NCBI GenBank assembly: GCA_016188625.1
Contig: JACPHL010000029.1
Coordinates: forward strand, 1 to 5,109
Origin: Candidatus Rokuibacteriota bacterium
Lineage (GTDB): Bacteria; Methylomirabilota; Methylomirabilia; Rokubacteriales; JACPHL01
Reading direction: 5' to 3'
DNA: 5,109 nucleotides
In this document: positions 1 to 5,109 of the stretch, piece after piece
Numbering within the stretch: the stretch's first letter is position 1
Layout of the letters: every line of letters begins with the position of its first letter
The notes under the pieces: generated by a model
Database searches by the model: none
What the model was told of the DNA's origin: nothing
The model's input: only the letters and a program-made list of their open reading frames with translations
Made by a program: the position numbers and the translations under genes

Positions 1-1977
1 GAACTTGTAGATCGAGTTGTGGACCACCACGCCGTCGGCGACGAAGTTGTGGGTCCGGTCCACCTCCAGGTCGTAGACCTCGTTTCGCCGCACCTCCTCG
101 GACACCTTCACGACGCGTTCGTAGACGACCCGATGGCCCTTCAGGACCGGCAGATAGTGCCCGGGTAGCACGTTCCCCGCCGGCATCACCAGCGCCGCCC
201 GGTGCTGGACATTGGTCGTTCCCACCGCGAACCGGACCTCGAGGATCCCGTCCACCAGGTCCCGGAGGAACTCGGCCCTGGCGCCGATCTCCTCCAGGGA
301 AGGGCTGGTCGCCCGGAACACCCACCCCCGCCGGGCCTTTCGCAGCGGGACGCCAGCCGCCCGGAGCCGCTCGATCACCTCGGGGGCGGATGTCTCGAGT
401 GAGAGGGCGTGCAGGATGTGCGGGGTCTTCAGGAAGCGGCCGCGCCGCTTGGGGACATACCGCCGGTAGCAGATCGTCAGGATGACCTTGACCCTCGACT
501 GCCTCCCCCGGTGCACCCCGCCCAGGGCGAAGTGGTGCGCCTCGATGTCGATCCCGAGGTCGGCCGCCAACCGCTCCGCGTTCTTCCTCGTGTCGATCTC
601 GCGGAAGAGGCGCTCCAGGTATTCGCCGACCACCATCATCGTCTGCCGGGGTTTGAACGGCAGGGTGGGGATCCCGTACCGGAGCGACCAGAGCGCCTCG
701 AGGTAGCGGGCTTCGGCCTCGGAGCGGCAGGCGCGGAGCCCGACGATGCGGTCCCCGGAGCGCTCCAGGCAGAGCCGGACCGCGAGGTCGTTCGTGACGC
801 CGATCCGCCAGCCGAGGCCGCGCCGCTCCATCAGGTAGACATACGTGAACTCCTTGGAGGCGGCGACCCTGGGGACGCGACAGAACATCTTGTGGTTGTC
901 GGTCACGGTGATCCGCCGGCCGGACTCGGTCTCGAAGGTCAGAAAGCGCGCCCGCTTCTCCCGCCGGAAGACGCGGGTCACCGCGCCGACCCCGACGAAG
1001 CCCTTCCCCACCGCCGTGAGCACCTGATCACCGGGACGGATCGTCTCGATGGGGCGAGGGCCCTCCGGGGTCTCGACCTGCGCCCCGGGCGGGAGGCACT
1101 GATCGTCATCGGCCACGACCGCGAGGTTCGCGTGGCTGGCGGCCAGGAGCTTCACCAGCTCGAACTGGGCGTAGTTGGTGTCCTGGAACTCGTCCACCAG
1201 GATGTAGCGGAAGCGGCGCTGGTAGGCCGTGAGGACGTGGGGGCGCGTGCGGAAGAGCCGGAGCGCGTAGACGATCTGGTCCCCGAAGTCCACGCACCCC
1301 TCCCGGCCCATCAGCTCCTGGTACCTGGCGTAGGTCCGGGCCAGCTCGAGCTGCTGGGCCGCCCGCTCCCGGAGGGCCGCCGCCTCCGCGTCATCCGCGG
1401 GCGCGCCCTCGACCCCGGCGCGGAGCCGCTCCGCCCAGGCCAGGTACTCCTCGGGCGAGACGTCCTCGTCCTTGGCCCGGCTGATGAGGGCGATGATCGC
1501 CTCCACGTGGCGGGTCGGGTCGCCCAGCGGGCGGTAGTGGTCGAGCGGGAACTCGAAGAGGCGGTCGCGGAAGAAGATCACCTGCTCGGCGCGGCCGAGG
1601 ACGCGGAAGTCGGGCGTAAGCCCCACCTCCAGGGCGCTCTCCCGGAGGAGCCGGTCGCCGAAGGCGTGGAAGGTCGAGATCCAGACGTCGGCGTACCCGT
1701 AGGGGACGAGCAGGTCCACCCGCTCCTCCATCTCGGCCGCCGCCTTGTCGGTGAAGGTCAGGGCGAGGATCTCCTCGGGGCGGGCGCGCTTTTCGACGAT
1801 GAGGTAGGCGATCCGACGGGTGATGACGCTGGTCTTGCCGGTGCCGGCCCCGGCGACGATGAGGAGGGGACCCTGGTCGTGGGTGACGGCCTCGGCCTGG
1901 GCGGGGTTGAGCCCCTCGAGGATCCGGGCGGTCGCCGAATCGGCCTCGGGGCTGGCCTCCCGCGGGTGAGGGATCAT
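1..1977 (-). CDS. UvrD/PcrA-type superfamily 1 DNA helicase, interrupted by an intein (partial; C-terminus off the left edge)
   Basis: This is an ATP-dependent 3'-5' DNA helicase of the UvrD/Rep family, expected to act in repair or recombination in the cytoplasm. The frame is open for 659 codons from ATG at 1977 to the window edge. The first 293 residues are host protein: LNPAQAEAV (Q-motif, 23-31), Walker A AGAGTGKT (42-49), motif Ia TFTDKAAAEM (74-83), motif Ib STFHAF (101-106), VDFGDQI (229-235), motif II ILVDEFQDTN (259-268) and the start of motif III, VVADDDQ (287-293). A 361-residue intein follows, then SIYKF, which continues motif III (family pattern DDxQSIYxFRGA). Domains 2A/2B and motifs IV-VI lie outside the window. 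The VDFGD segment resembles large actinobacterial-type UvrD proteins, some with a C-terminal PD-(D/E)XK nuclease; whether that applies here cannot be seen. An in-frame GTG at 1986 would add three residues (GTG AAG CCG). The dehydrogenase gene lies 49 bp upstream on the same strand. Family assignment is secure; the exact subfamily is not. Confidence 0.95.
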   Translation of the reverse strand, partial: MIPHPREASPEADSATARILEGLNPAQAEAVTHDQGPLLIVAGAGTGKTSVITRRIAYLIVEKRARPEEILALTFTDKAAAEMEERVDLLVPYGYADVWISTFHAFGDRLLRESALEVGLTPDFRVLGRAEQVIFFRDRLFEFPLDHYRPLGDPTRHVEAIIALISRAKDEDVSPEEYLAWAERLRAGVEGAPADDAEAAALRERAAQQLELARTYARYQELMGREGCVDFGDQIVYALRLFRTRPHVLTAYQRRFRYILVDEFQDTNYAQFELVKLLAASHANLAVVADDDQCLPPGAQVETPEGPRPIETIRPGDQVLTAVGKGFVGVGAVTRVFRREKRARFLTFETESGRRITVTDNHKMFCRVPRVAASKEFTYVYLMERRGLGWRIGVTNDLAVRLCLERSGDRIVGLRACRSEAEARYLEALWSLRYGIPTLPFKPRQTMMVVGEYLERLFREIDTRKNAERLAADLGIDIEAHHFALGGVHRGRQSRVKVILTICYRRYVPKRRGRFLKTPHILHALSLETSAPEVIERLRAAGVPLRKARRGWVFRATSPSLEEIGARAEFLRDLVDGILEVRFAVGTTNVQHRAALVMPAGNVLPGHYLPVLKGHRVVYERVVKVSEEVRRNEVYDLEVDRTHNFVADGVVVHNSIYKF
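16..1098 (-). mobile_element. Intein (361 aa) inserted in motif III of the helicase, between Gln293 and Ser
   Basis: This in-frame protein intron removes itself from the precursor and ligates the flanks ...DDQ and SIYKF... Splicing blocks are clear. Block A is Cys1-LPPGAQVETPEGPRPI with a following RPGDQVLT. Block B is ITVTDNHKMF, with the TxxH arrangement T66-D-N-H69. Block F is VYDLEVDRTHNFVADG (341-356). Block G is VVVHN (357-361), ending in His360-Asn361 and followed by Ser as the +1 nucleophile. All residues needed for class 1 splicing (Cys1, block-B Thr/His, penultimate His, terminal Asn, +1 Ser) are present, so it should be active. At 361 residues it is far longer than a mini-intein (about 130-150), leaving about 200 residues of insert. 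Codons ending in A or T number 23 of 361 here against 9 of 293 in the upstream host part (my hand count), which hints at separate ancestry. Related inteins at this site are known in actinobacterial-type UvrD helicases; that statement is from memory. Confidence 0.96.
655..843 (-). other. GIY-YIG-like segment inside the intein (putative homing-endonuclease core, possibly degenerate)
   Basis: Intein residues 86-148 begin YVYLMERRGLGWRIGVTND, followed by LAVRL. YVY (86-88) and RIG (98-100) are nine residues apart and sit where GIY and YIG sit in GIY-YIG nucleases. Arg108 lies eight residues after RIG, where the catalytic Arg is expected. The later EAEARYLEALWSLRYGIPTL has the helical pattern around the conserved Glu, with Glu134 the best candidate. 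What argues against a normal nuclease: neither signature triplet is exact, and the Arg-Glu spacing (26 residues) is shorter than in I-TevI or UvrC. The domain could be a compact variant, a decayed endonuclease or an unrelated fold. If active, it would cut intein-free helicase alleles to promote homing. This is inference from motif spacing only. Confidence 0.5.
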
Positions 1978-1984
1978 CGGCTTC

Positions 1985-2014
1985 ACTATACCCCCCGGCG
2001 GAGAGGGCCAGCAA
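1985..2014 (-). promoter_or_regulatory. Putative sigma70-type promoter of the helicase gene (TTGCTG-N18-TATAGT)
   Basis: Read on the minus strand, TATAGT (1990-1985) matches the -10 consensus at five of six bases. TTGCTG (2014-2009) is a weak -35 with an 18-bp spacer. Only 7 bases (gaagccg) separate the -10 from ATG at 1977, so transcription would begin at or beside the A of the start codon and give a leaderless mRNA. There is no purine-rich Shine-Dalgarno between box and ATG. A six-G run (1996-1991) lies before the -10 and could instead serve a GTG start at 1986. The 49-bp gap between the dehydrogenase stop and this gene shows no hairpin terminator, so read-through from the dehydrogenase is also possible. 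Confidence 0.45.
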
Positions 2015-2026
2015 GGGATTTCACGG

Positions 2027-2791
2027 TCACATCGCCGTCCAGCCGCCGTCCACGAAGATGACCTGGCCGGTGACGTAGTCCGAGGCCGGGGAGGCCAGGA
2101 AGAGGAGCAGCCCGGCCAGGTCCGCCGGGACCCCGGTCCGGCCCGCCGGGATGCGGCCGAGGGCCCGCTCCAGCCAGCCGGGCTGGGCGAAGAGCGGCTC
2201 CGTCAGCTCGGTCCGGAGGTAGCCGGGGCCGATGGCGTTGACCTGGACCCCGTGGGGGGCCCACTCCACGGCCAGGACGCGGGTCAGGCCGGCGAGCCCG
2301 GCCTTGGCGGCGGTGTAGACCGCGAGGTTGGGGAGGCCGTGGCGGACCGCCAGCGAGACGATGTTGATGACCTTCCCGCTCCCCTGGCCGAGCATCACCC
2401 GCCCCGCGGCCTGGGCGCAGAAGAAGGCCGCCTTGAGGTTCAGGGTGACGACCCGGTCCCAGTCGGCCTCGGTCACCTCCAGGGCCGGCCGCCGGATGTT
2501 GGTCCCGGCGTTGTTGACCAGGATGTCGAGGCGGCCCAGCTCCCGGACCGCCCCCTCGACCATGGCGGGGATCTCCCCGGTCCGGGCGAGGTCGATCGGC
2601 CGGACCAGGGCCCGCCGCCCCATGGCCTCGATCCGGGCGGCGACCCGCTCGAGCCCGGCCCGATCCCGGCTGGCCAGGCAGAGGTCGGCGCCGGCCCCGG
2701 CGAGGGTGAGGGCCGCCTCGGCCCCGATCCCGCGGCTCGCCCCGGTGACCAGCGCCACCTTCCCCTGTAGGTCGAATCGCCCCGGCTCCAC
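2027..2791 (-). CDS. Short-chain dehydrogenase/reductase (classical SDR, 254 aa)
   Basis: This is a cytosolic NAD(P)(H)-dependent oxidoreductase with a single Rossmann-fold domain. The cofactor glycine motif is TGASRGIG (16-23). Asp67 in PIDLA sits at the adenine-binding position. NNAG is at 93-96 and the structural Asn of LNLK at 118. The catalytic set is Ser146 (INIVSL) and Tyr159-x3-Lys163 (YTAAK). The PG motif (189-190) precedes YLRTELT, and the C-terminus is the usual VTGQVIFVDGG. Length is typical for classical SDRs. The LASRD segment after beta-2 (39-43), with Arg42, suggests NADP(H) preference but is not decisive. It resembles gluconate 5-dehydrogenase or 3-oxoacyl-ACP reductase relatives; no fatty-acid or sugar genes are adjacent, so the substrate is open and no symbol is given. 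The start is GTG at 2791, with GAGGGG four bases upstream. The stop TGA is followed one codon later by a second in-frame TGA. The helicase lies 49 bp downstream; the acylase gene diverges upstream. Confidence 0.96.
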   Translation of the reverse strand: MEPGRFDLQGKVALVTGASRGIGAEAALTLAGAGADLCLASRDRAGLERVAARIEAMGRRALVRPIDLARTGEIPAMVEGAVRELGRLDILVNNAGTNIRRPALEVTEADWDRVVTLNLKAAFFCAQAAGRVMLGQGSGKVINIVSLAVRHGLPNLAVYTAAKAGLAGLTRVLAVEWAPHGVQVNAIGPGYLRTELTEPLFAQPGWLERALGRIPAGRTGVPADLAGLLLFLASPASDYVTGQVIFVDGGWTAM

Positions 2792-2795
2792 CGCG

Positions 2796-2801
2796 CCCCT
2801 C
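2796..2801 (-). promoter_or_regulatory. Shine-Dalgarno-like GAGGGG for the dehydrogenase
   Basis: GAGGGG on the minus strand, preceded by AT, lies four bases (cgcg) before the GTG at 2791. The spacing is slightly short, but it is the best ribosome-binding match in the window. It supports GTG as the start, since the conserved GKVALVTGASRGIG follows at the usual distance from the N-terminus. Confidence 0.55.
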
Positions 2802-2813
2802 TATCGGCGCTTC

Positions 2814-2842
2814 AGGCTACCCTCGACCGCCGGCGCCGTCAA
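2814..2842 (-). promoter_or_regulatory. Putative promoter of the dehydrogenase (TTGACG-N17-TAGCCT)
   Basis: On the minus strand, TTGACG (2842-2837) matches the -35 consensus at five of six bases. Exactly 17 bases later comes TAGCCT (2819-2814), a weak -10 with three of six matches including the first TA and final T. Transcription would start near 2807, leaving a leader of about 15 nt that contains the GAGGGG site. The -35 lies where the -35 of the divergent acylase promoter would fall, so the two polymerases would compete for the same DNA. Confidence 0.4.
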
Positions 2843-2858
2843 GGCCGCCGGGGGCGCG

Positions 2859-2867
2859 TGGTATACT
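2859..2867 (+). promoter_or_regulatory. Extended -10 element (TGGTATACT) of the acylase gene
   Basis: TGGTATACT contains TATACT (five of six matches to TATAAT) preceded by TG one base upstream, the classic extended -10 pattern that can work without a good -35. No convincing -35 is seen 17-18 bases upstream (around 2838-2844). The box ends 8 bases before the GTG at 2876, so the predicted start point is about 0-2 bases from the start codon and the mRNA would be essentially leaderless. It stands out as the only A/T-rich stretch in a very GC-rich spacer. Confidence 0.45.
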
Positions 2868-2875
2868 CGGTCGCC

Positions 2876-5109
2876 GTGAAGCGGGCCCTCCGCCTCGCGC
2901 TCCTGGGCCTCGCGGCCCTCCTGCTCGTGAGCGTCGCCGGCGGGAGCCTGGCCGCGCTCTGGCTCTGGAGCCGGCTCCCTCAGATCAGCGGGACCCTCGC
3001 CCTCCCCGGGCTCGAACGACCGGTGGAGGTTATCCGCGACGCCTGGGGCGTCCCCCACATCTACGCCGAAAGCCTCACAGACCTCGTCTTCGCCCAGGGG
3101 TTCGTCACCGCCCAGGACCGCCCCTGGCAGATGGACCTCCTCCGGCGCGCCGCCGCCGGGCGGCTGGCCGAGGTCCTGGGGCCGGAGGCCCTGGCCTGGG
3201 ATCGGCTCGCCCGCACGGTCGGGTTCGAGCGGGTGGCCCGCGCTTCCCTCGACCGCCAGGAGCCCGAGACCCGGCGGGTCCTCGAGGCGTATGCGCGGGG
3301 GGTCAACGCCGCCCTGGCCCTGACCCCCCGGGCGCTCGAGTTCCTCCTCCTCAGCTACCGGCCGGAGCCGTGGGAGCCGCTCCACACCCTCGCCCTCGGC
3401 CGGGTCCTGGCGTGGGAGCTCTCCCAGTGGCACCCGCGCCTCGTCCTGGCCAAGATCCTCCCCCGCCTCGACCCACGCCGGCGGGAGGATCTGGTCCCCA
3501 TCTATCCCGCGGACGGACCGCTCATCGTCGCCGCGCCCCCCGGCGTCCCGTCCGCGCTCGGCCTCCTCGGCCCGGGCGGCGGCTCCAACAGCTGGGCGGT
3601 CGGGCCGGAGCGCTCGGCGAGCGGCGCCCCCCTCCTCGCCAACGACCCCCACCTCCCCCTGGGCGCCCCGTCGCGCTGGTACGAGGTCCATCTGGTGGGG
3701 GCGGGCCTCGACGTCTACGGCTTCAGCATCCCGGGCGCCCCTGGCGTCATCATCGGCGCCAACGCGGAGCTGGCCTGGGGGTTCACGAACCTCATGCTCG
3801 ACGACCTCGACCTCTACCGGGAGCGGCTCCATCCGGAGCGGGAGGATCTCTACGAGGTCGCGGGGCGGTGGGAGCCGCTGACCCGCCTGGCGGAGCGGAT
3901 CGAGGTGCGAGGGCGCGAGCCCGAGACCCTGGAGGTCAGGATCGGCCGCCACGGCCCGCTCATCACCCCGACCCTGATCCAGGCCGGCGAGCCGCTGGCC
4001 CTCCGCTGGACCGGCCACGACCCCGGCCAGGAGGTGGCCGCGATCCTGGGGATGAACCGGGCCCGCGCCTGGCCTGAGTTCCGGGAGGCCCTCCGCCGCT
4101 TCGCCACCCCGGCCCAGAGCGTGGTCTACGCGGACCGGAGCGGGACGATCGCGTATCAGGCGATGGGGCGGGTCCCGGTGCGCCCGCGGGGCGGGACCCT
4201 CGCCCCCCTGGAGGGGTGGCACGGGCGGGATGACTGGCGGGGGTGGGTCCCGTTCGACCACCTCCCCGGGGTCGTGAACCCCCCGGCCGGCGTCCTGGTG
4301 ACCGCGAACAACCGCGTGAGCGCCGACCCGGGGCTCTACATCAGCCACCTCTGGGAGCCGCCCGACCGGGCCGCCAGGATCCGGGAGCTGCTGGAAGCCA
4401 AGGCGAAGCTCACCCTCGACGACCTCCGGGCGATCCAGCTCGACCGCCGCCCGCCGTGGGTCCGGCGCCTGGTCCCGCTGATCCTGGAGGCGTGGAAGGA
4501 CGCCGAGGGCTCGGGCAAGGTCGCCGGAGGGCTCGACCTCCTCAAGGCCTGGGACGGCGCCCTCGAGCCCGCGAGCCCGGTGGCGGCGCTCTTCGAGGCG
4601 CCCGTGGAGGAGCTGCTGGCGCAGACCTTCCGGGACGAGCTGGGAGAGGAGGAGTACCGGGAGTTCGGGCGGGCGTGGGACCTGGCCGGGGTCGCCCTGG
4701 ACCGGCTCCTCGCGCGGGGGACCTCCCCCTGGTTCGACGACGTCACGACGCCGGAGCGGGAGGATCTCCCCGAGCTGCTCCGCCGGAGCCTCCGGGCCGC
4801 GCTCCGAACTCTCGAGGCCCGGCTCGGCCCCGACCCGGCGAGCTGGCGCTGGGAGCGGCTCCACACCGTCGCCCTCGAGCACCCGCTCGGCCGCCGGCGT
4901 CCCCTCGGCCTCCTCTTCTCGCTGGGCCCCTACGGGATGGGCGGGGACCCCCGCACGGTCTGGAAGAGCCACTTCTACCACGACGGCCGCTTCCGCGCGA
5001 CGGTCGCCCCCTCGTTCCGGATGCTGGTGGACCTCGGCGGCCGCGGGCGGTCGCGTGTCGTCCTCACCACCGGCCAATCTGGACACCCACTGTCGCGCCA
5101 CTACCGCGA
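2876..5109 (+). CDS. Penicillin acylase family protein (Ntn hydrolase, exported or membrane-anchored; C-terminus cut by the window edge)
   Basis: Members of this family hydrolyse amide bonds, for example in beta-lactam side chains, acyl-homoserine lactones or related N-acyl compounds, after cutting themselves into alpha and beta chains. 744 codons are present. Residues 1-31 are a basic n-region (MKR) plus a long hydrophobic stretch rich in Leu/Ala, a signal peptide or signal anchor. The alpha-chain start VIRDAWGVPHIYAES (52-66) and FAQGFVTAQDRPWQMDLLRR (72-91) are family hallmarks. GGGSNSWAVGP (234-244) gives autocleavage before Ser237, the beta-chain nucleophile. NDPHL (256-260) places His259 at beta position 23. 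TANNR (476-480) supplies the oxyanion Asn near beta 242, close to Asn241 of E. coli penicillin G acylase. TTGQSGHPLSRHY near the edge is the usual C-terminal motif, so only a few tens of residues are missing. The GTG at 2876 gives the best signal-peptide n-region; an in-frame GTG at 2858 behind a G-run would add MVYSVA. The substrate cannot be told. It diverges from the dehydrogenase. Confidence 0.95.
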   Translation, partial: MKRALRLALLGLAALLLVSVAGGSLAALWLWSRLPQISGTLALPGLERPVEVIRDAWGVPHIYAESLTDLVFAQGFVTAQDRPWQMDLLRRAAAGRLAEVLGPEALAWDRLARTVGFERVARASLDRQEPETRRVLEAYARGVNAALALTPRALEFLLLSYRPEPWEPLHTLALGRVLAWELSQWHPRLVLAKILPRLDPRRREDLVPIYPADGPLIVAAPPGVPSALGLLGPGGGSNSWAVGPERSASGAPLLANDPHLPLGAPSRWYEVHLVGAGLDVYGFSIPGAPGVIIGANAELAWGFTNLMLDDLDLYRERLHPEREDLYEVAGRWEPLTRLAERIEVRGREPETLEVRIGRHGPLITPTLIQAGEPLALRWTGHDPGQEVAAILGMNRARAWPEFREALRRFATPAQSVVYADRSGTIAYQAMGRVPVRPRGGTLAPLEGWHGRDDWRGWVPFDHLPGVVNPPAGVLVTANNRVSADPGLYISHLWEPPDRAARIRELLEAKAKLTLDDLRAIQLDRRPPWVRRLVPLILEAWKDAEGSGKVAGGLDLLKAWDGALEPASPVAALFEAPVEELLAQTFRDELGEEEYREFGRAWDLAGVALDRLLARGTSPWFDDVTTPEREDLPELLRRSLRAALRTLEARLGPDPASWRWERLHTVALEHPLGRRRPLGLLFSLGPYGMGGDPRTVWKSHFYHDGRFRATVAPSFRMLVDLGGRGRSRVVLTTGQSGHPLSRHYR

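Follow-up and report, generated by a model that had tools for sequence, protein, structure and literature searches.

Endonucleases of inteins are almost always described as LAGLIDADG enzymes and rarely as HNH enzymes. A 2006 survey (PMC1564403), which defines the GIY-YIG superfamily by its GIY, YIG, Arg, and Glu elements and describes a fold of three strands and three helices, did not find it in inteins. The nearest report that we found concerns AceL NrdHF, a class 3 intein split into two genes, with a putative GIY-YIG homing endonuclease encoded between them (PMC7891396). Inteins of UvrD/PcrA helicases are already listed in reviews (PMC5874633), and in haloarchaeal MCM inteins the invasion of splicing-incompatible Pro+1 alleles requires co-conversion of the flanks (PMC10643990).

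Here, we analyze a window of 5109 bp, the whole of contig C84 of a 2.6-Mb genome that is 84% complete (G000), and find that positions 16 to 1098 are a complete class-1-type intein in motif III of a UvrD/AddA-like helicase-nuclease. The splicing element, its site, and its host are of known kinds, and it is the nuclease that differs. With high confidence, we read the locus as a cis-splicing intein of class 1 type, in which a homing endonuclease of the GIY-YIG type splits the Hint domain where intein endonucleases usually lie. An earlier note on this DNA had identified the intein, and its account of the element, the splicing residues, and the site holds; it had overlooked the predicted GIY-YIG-type nuclease in the middle, by which the element shifts from being simply an intein to being a nuclease-bearing, mobile one. 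The features of the locus are as follows.

1099 to 1986, minus strand: N-extein, 296 residues of a UvrD-family helicase with a GTG start at 1986 (Pfam UvrD-helicase, 1e-67; PcrA alignment)
16 to 1098, minus strand: complete intein, 361 residues (Pfam and NCBIfam matches, conserved residues, model)
859 to 1098, minus strand: N-terminal Hint half, residues 1 to about 80 (TIGR01445 and Hint matches)
1096 to 1098, minus strand: Cys1, within the N-terminal Hint half
892 to 903, minus strand: block B, T66-x-x-H69, with T66 and H69 invariant
601 to 849, minus strand: predicted GIY-YIG-type nuclease domain, residues 84 to 166 (invariant residues, strand-helix order, VIA-align, HHalign with controls)
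835 to 837, minus strand: Tyr88 of the nuclease domain
799 to 801, minus strand: Gly100 of the nuclease domain
775 to 777, minus strand: Arg108 of the nuclease domain
697 to 699, minus strand: Glu134 of the nuclease domain
190 to 600, minus strand: rest of the insert, residues 167 to 303, mixed alpha/beta, a candidate DNA-target recognition region
16 to 189, minus strand: C-terminal Hint half, residues 304 to 361 (TIGR01443, 35.4 bits against a cut-off of 15.6; Intein_splicing)
16 to 21, minus strand: His360-Asn361, the last residues of the intein
1 to 15, minus strand: SIYKF, the first five C-extein residues, where the window ends with the contig
13 to 15, minus strand: Ser+1, the first C-extein residue
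1 to 69, minus strand: exact 69-bp overlap with contig C325 of the same genome (G000:C325), which carries the host gene onward

The open frame starts at 1986 on the minus strand and runs off the contig end at position 1; residues 297 to 657 of this frame form the insert, between the flanks VVADDDQ and SIYKF. The insert scores above the curated cut-offs of Pfam Intein_splicing (56.2 bits versus 35.8), Hint, and Hint_2, as well as those of NCBIfam intein_Nterm and intein_Cterm, and also shows sequence matches to solved inteins. Its AlphaFold model (mean pLDDT 92, pTM 0.89) has the Hint fold and matches the Mtu RecA intein with a TM score of 0.83 by target length. The class 1 assignment rests on this fold, on the N- and C-terminal splicing blocks, and on the presence of all splicing residues, namely Cys1, T66DNH69, the terminal His360-Asn361, and Ser+1. 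Across 26 relatives, C1 is nearly invariant, and T66, H69, H360, and N361 do not vary at all. All 29 loci of the scan of 84,980 species described below are open frames, which supports the earlier expectation that the intein is probably active in splicing. The same note had also held that annotation pipelines would easily misjudge the helicase as frame-disrupted. This is not supported, since the standard models of both Pfam and NCBIfam score the intein over their cut-offs; what escapes them is the nuclease.

The N-extein ends in VVADDDQ, its final Gln being the motif III Gln, and the window holds only five residues of the C-extein, the remainder of the host being taken from contig C325 via the overlap. 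The first 54 bases of contig C325 are the end of the intein. The frame of this contig then reads SIYKFRGAA and goes on to encode UvrD_C and a PDDEXK_1 nuclease domain, so that the host is an AddA/UvrD-like helicase-nuclease rather than PcrA itself. The joined host junction aligns without gaps to residues 172 to 304 of PcrA (1pjr), which places the insertion after PcrA Q254, a number obtained by position arithmetic from the alignment. Orthologues without the intein are contiguous across the junction, in agreement with the previous claim of an exact Gln/Ser site within motif III of this UvrD-family helicase. A separate helicase of this genome, on contig C31, is without an intein. We also considered whether the contig break arose from a mixture of intein-bearing and empty strains; this is unsupported, as the start of the 69-bp overlap does not lie at an intein border. 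The remaining window holds two ordinary neighbors, a short-chain dehydrogenase gene (2027 to 2791, minus strand) and a gene for a protein of the penicillin-amidase family (2858 to 5107, plus strand), the latter extending to the contig end.

A search of 95 genomes of the phylum recovered this intein family at 23 loci, and wherever both ends are present, the junction is the same Gln/Ser. These loci fall into two groups, one 64 to 81% identical to the window intein and hosted by the same helicase-nuclease, the other 32 to 38% identical and hosted by a PcrA-like helicase. The scan of 84,980 species adds loci with the same junction and open frames from Omnitrophota, Uhrbacteria, Amesbacteria, Falkowbacteria, Paceibacterota, Aquicultor, an Actinobacteria bin, and Calidithermus. 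Two helicase paralogues carry the intein at the same codon junction, as observed in Rokubacteria, Omnitrophota, Patescibacteria, Actinomycetota, and Calidithermus. Related inteins were found in motif III of a UvrD-like helicase of Klebsiella phage KP2025 (L159; PP919962.1, helicase CDS 1239-4118) and in a DNA methylase of Streptococcus suis phages (L158; Streptococcus phage Javan558, MK448983.1, methyltransferase CDS 1125-3236). The L158 and L159 inteins have the same GIY-YIG-like middle segment and are annotated merely as methyltransferase and putative helicase, respectively. A search of a plasmid collection gave zero matches. An Actinobacteria locus with a PcrA-like host (L069:4001-4771) encodes a 257-residue version with both splicing halves intact; its in-frame deletion sets in directly behind YIG and takes out the Arg and Glu. 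This corresponds to the expected late stage of an intein homing cycle and shows the nuclease to be a separable module.

The presence of the intein is patchy: in close relatives, the site can be empty. Orthologues of host 1 mostly lack it and are contiguous. The earlier note had held that its reading would fail if homologues kept these residues in the mature helicase; the dozens of orthologues without the insert speak against such a failure. A host tree of 59 rows, built with the +1 residue masked, requires at least seven occupancy changes, five of which are forced by well-supported branches. Two genomes of one genus, G060 with the intein and G059 without it, share 94.7% identity outside the site and only 72.2% in codons -30 to +235 around it (p = 3e-64), and this clustering was reached by none of 2,000 permutations. 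The control pair G059/G057, both empty, shows no such dip (81.7 versus 83.8%), and G060 is therefore the recombinant. A second sister pair (G088/G087) is 75.7% identical in a smaller tract versus 93.7%. In both pairs the foreign flanking tracts are centered on the insertion, the pattern expected of homing with co-conversion of flanks. They prove that the insert moved between species by recombination and do not indicate what made the DNA cut. G088 also contains fifteen GIY-YIG matches on many contigs; several lie at contig ends and score identically, which suggests that a free-standing GIY-YIG element is present in multiple copies.

Distances suggest, but no more than suggest, that the intein passed from one helicase paralogue to the other. 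Locus L051 shares 47% identity with the window in the intein and 37% in the extein, versus about 30% and about 47%, respectively, with the PcrA-hosted loci of Rokubacteria. An AU test leaves the host-congruent tree standing (p = 0.166), and we do not claim this transfer.

Residues 84 to 166 of the intein follow the pattern YVYLM...GWRIGVT...R...E, with VY(L)M at 87 to 90 and RIG at 98 to 100. Tyr88, Gly100, Asp116, and Glu134 are invariant in 26 inteins, down to 28 to 33% identity, and Arg108, invariant in alignment A1, is matched in all inteins by hand alignment. These observations bear on an alternative to active homing, namely that the intein splices while its nuclease is an inactive inherited relic, the element spreading only by ordinary homologous recombination between strains. 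Divergent GIY-YIG motifs would fit a relic, as would the L069 intein, which lost its nuclease yet kept its splicing residues. Catalytic positions that stay invariant over very divergent inteins argue otherwise, however, as does a mean column identity of 56% in the nuclease segment versus 50% in the whole intein, unlike neutral decay, and the centering of the flanking tracts on the insertion points in the same direction. We therefore regard a relic nuclease as unlikely.

As for the fold, the AlphaFold model places secondary structure elements at E85-92, E96-102, H105-111, E117-124, H127-141, and H158-167, and this strand-helix order over residues 85 to 167 agrees with the three-stranded sheet and three helices of GIY-YIG domains. 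HHalign, run with a profile built from GIY-YIG domains of this phylum, returns a probability of 90% and a score of 36.4. The highest of 100 column-shuffled controls scores 18.1, the reversed profile 11.6, and other parts of the intein 7 to 11.5. In a structural comparison of the middle model (VIA-align), the listed matches that lie within its front part alone are two Slx1 entries (Z 4.9), UvrC (Z 3.7), and the PD-T4-3 endonuclease (Z 3.7); UPF0213 (Z 4.7) is also among the matches. Of the two comparisons, the HHalign one is independent and the stronger. From the agreement of the profile match, secondary-structure order, catalytic positions, and structural matches, we conclude that residues 84 to 166 form a divergent GIY-YIG nuclease domain. 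It is very improbable that the middle is instead a different small domain of alpha/beta type in which the YxYLM...G...R...E pattern arose by chance. Such a domain would accord with the modest structural Z scores, all below 5, and with the failure of individual family scans, but the four lines of evidence agree on the GIY-YIG superfamily and the controls do not.

Those scans show how divergent the domain is. A Pfam scan of the 26 members at E 1 returned zero LAGLIDADG or HNH family matches, and none of the 26 single sequences reached a GIY-YIG family cut-off, the best being a single match to T5orf172, a GIY-YIG-type family, at E 0.12, with none for the window intein. Single-sequence scans with Pfam, NCBIfam, and PHROGs did not recognize the nuclease domain, a profile search of PDB sequences placed UPF0213 on top at only E 0.12, and Foldseek with the middle model gave zero significant matches. 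A divergent GIY-YIG type would explain why standard scans give such inteins no nuclease call. Elsewhere in the same genome, we observe four LAGLIDADG_3 matches on contigs C185, C256, C241, and C192 (L001-L004), the window intein not being among the hits of this genome-wide scan. At least two lie in frames that also match intein ends, and the genome would thus hold inteins with both nuclease types.

The remainder of the insert (residues 167 to 303) is modeled with a mean pLDDT of mostly 74 to 97 and has weak structural matches to common folds only; the last third of the middle model resembles several common alpha/beta folds, e.g., microcompartment shell proteins, at a Z of about 5. The structure search of the middle model established no match to a known DNA-binding domain. 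This part is likely the DNA-recognition region, and the GIY-YIG domain would cleave DNA.

Taken together, the proposed cycle would begin with translation of the helicase precursor together with the intein, which would be excised through Cys1, the TxxH motif, the C-terminal His-Asn, and Ser+1, joining Gln to Ser and restoring motif III. In genomes with an intein-less copy, the GIY-YIG domain, aimed by residues of about 167 to 303, would cut the motif III coding sequence, its presumed DNA target, and homologous repair would copy the intein and flanking extein DNA, including the Ser+1 codon required for splicing. The motif III Gln of PcrA contacts the ATP gamma-phosphate, and the unspliced helicase would presumably be inactive; the obligatory activation step proposed for this locus would be a consequence of position for any active-site intein, and the analysis gave no sign of regulated splicing. 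That the intein is retained as a regulatory switch, with conditional splicing controlling the helicase, could draw on the interruption of motif III at the PcrA Q254 equivalent and a presumably inactive precursor, but most orthologues lack the intein and its distribution is that of a mobile element, so that we consider this explanation very improbable.

Homing of this kind would also involve the +1 residue. Within the tree, all 10 intein-bearing host 1 alleles carry Ser+1 (SIYK), whereas 29 of the 49 empty ones carry Ala+1 (AIYR or AIFR) and 20 carry Ser, these last mainly from other families of the class. Among the empty host 1 alleles (L091-L120, L160-L179), most of those from Rokubacteria combine Ala+1 with Arg+4 (AIYR), versus Ser+1 with Lys+4 (SIYK) in the intein-bearing ones. 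Ala is unable to serve as the +1 nucleophile in the splicing chemistry, and invasion of Ala+1 alleles would therefore need co-conversion. Ala+1/Arg+4 alleles are possibly resistant to invasion; for the association of Ala+1 with intein absence we obtain p = 0.125, the independent pairs being too few for significance.

Beyond the window itself, we think it likely, with somewhat less assurance than for this locus, that these loci belong to one family of contiguous inteins that carry their own GIY-YIG homing endonuclease, present in several bacterial phyla and in tailed phages and still homing, and thus a third intein nuclease type beside LAGLIDADG and HNH. If true, inteins have captured another nuclease superfamily, one that had been associated with group I introns and with genes that stand alone. 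The Rokubacteria set, with intein-bearing, nuclease-deleted, and empty alleles of one site, some of them Ala+1, makes the homing cycle and allele resistance directly testable, and the family offers biochemistry a small GIY-YIG nuclease whose presumed target, a helicase gene, is conserved. The phrase “GIY-YIG intein” was not found in the openly accessible papers searched, so that priority is not certain.

Compared with known systems, the window intein resembles the LAGLIDADG class 1 inteins (PI-SceI, PI-PfuI, Mtu RecA) as a cis-splicing Hint domain with an endonuclease between its N and C halves that homes into conserved motifs of DNA-metabolism genes; the nuclease of its family is of the predicted GIY-YIG type, with LAGLIDADG matches in 0 of 26 members. 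With AceL NrdHF (PMC7891396) it shares a putative GIY-YIG enzyme at the usual endonuclease position; there, however, the intein is a two-gene, class 3 split with a separate GIY-YIG gene, whereas here a single contiguous class-1-type intein holds the domain inside. GIY-YIG homing endonucleases of the I-TevI type, in group I introns or free-standing (PMC1564403), likewise have a catalytic core followed by a separate presumed DNA-binding region, and the window differs from them in that its domain is embedded in a protein-splicing element. Finally, the haloarchaeal MCM inteins (PMC10643990) have the same need for co-conversion, with LAGLIDADG and Pro+1 there and GIY-YIG and Ala+1 here.
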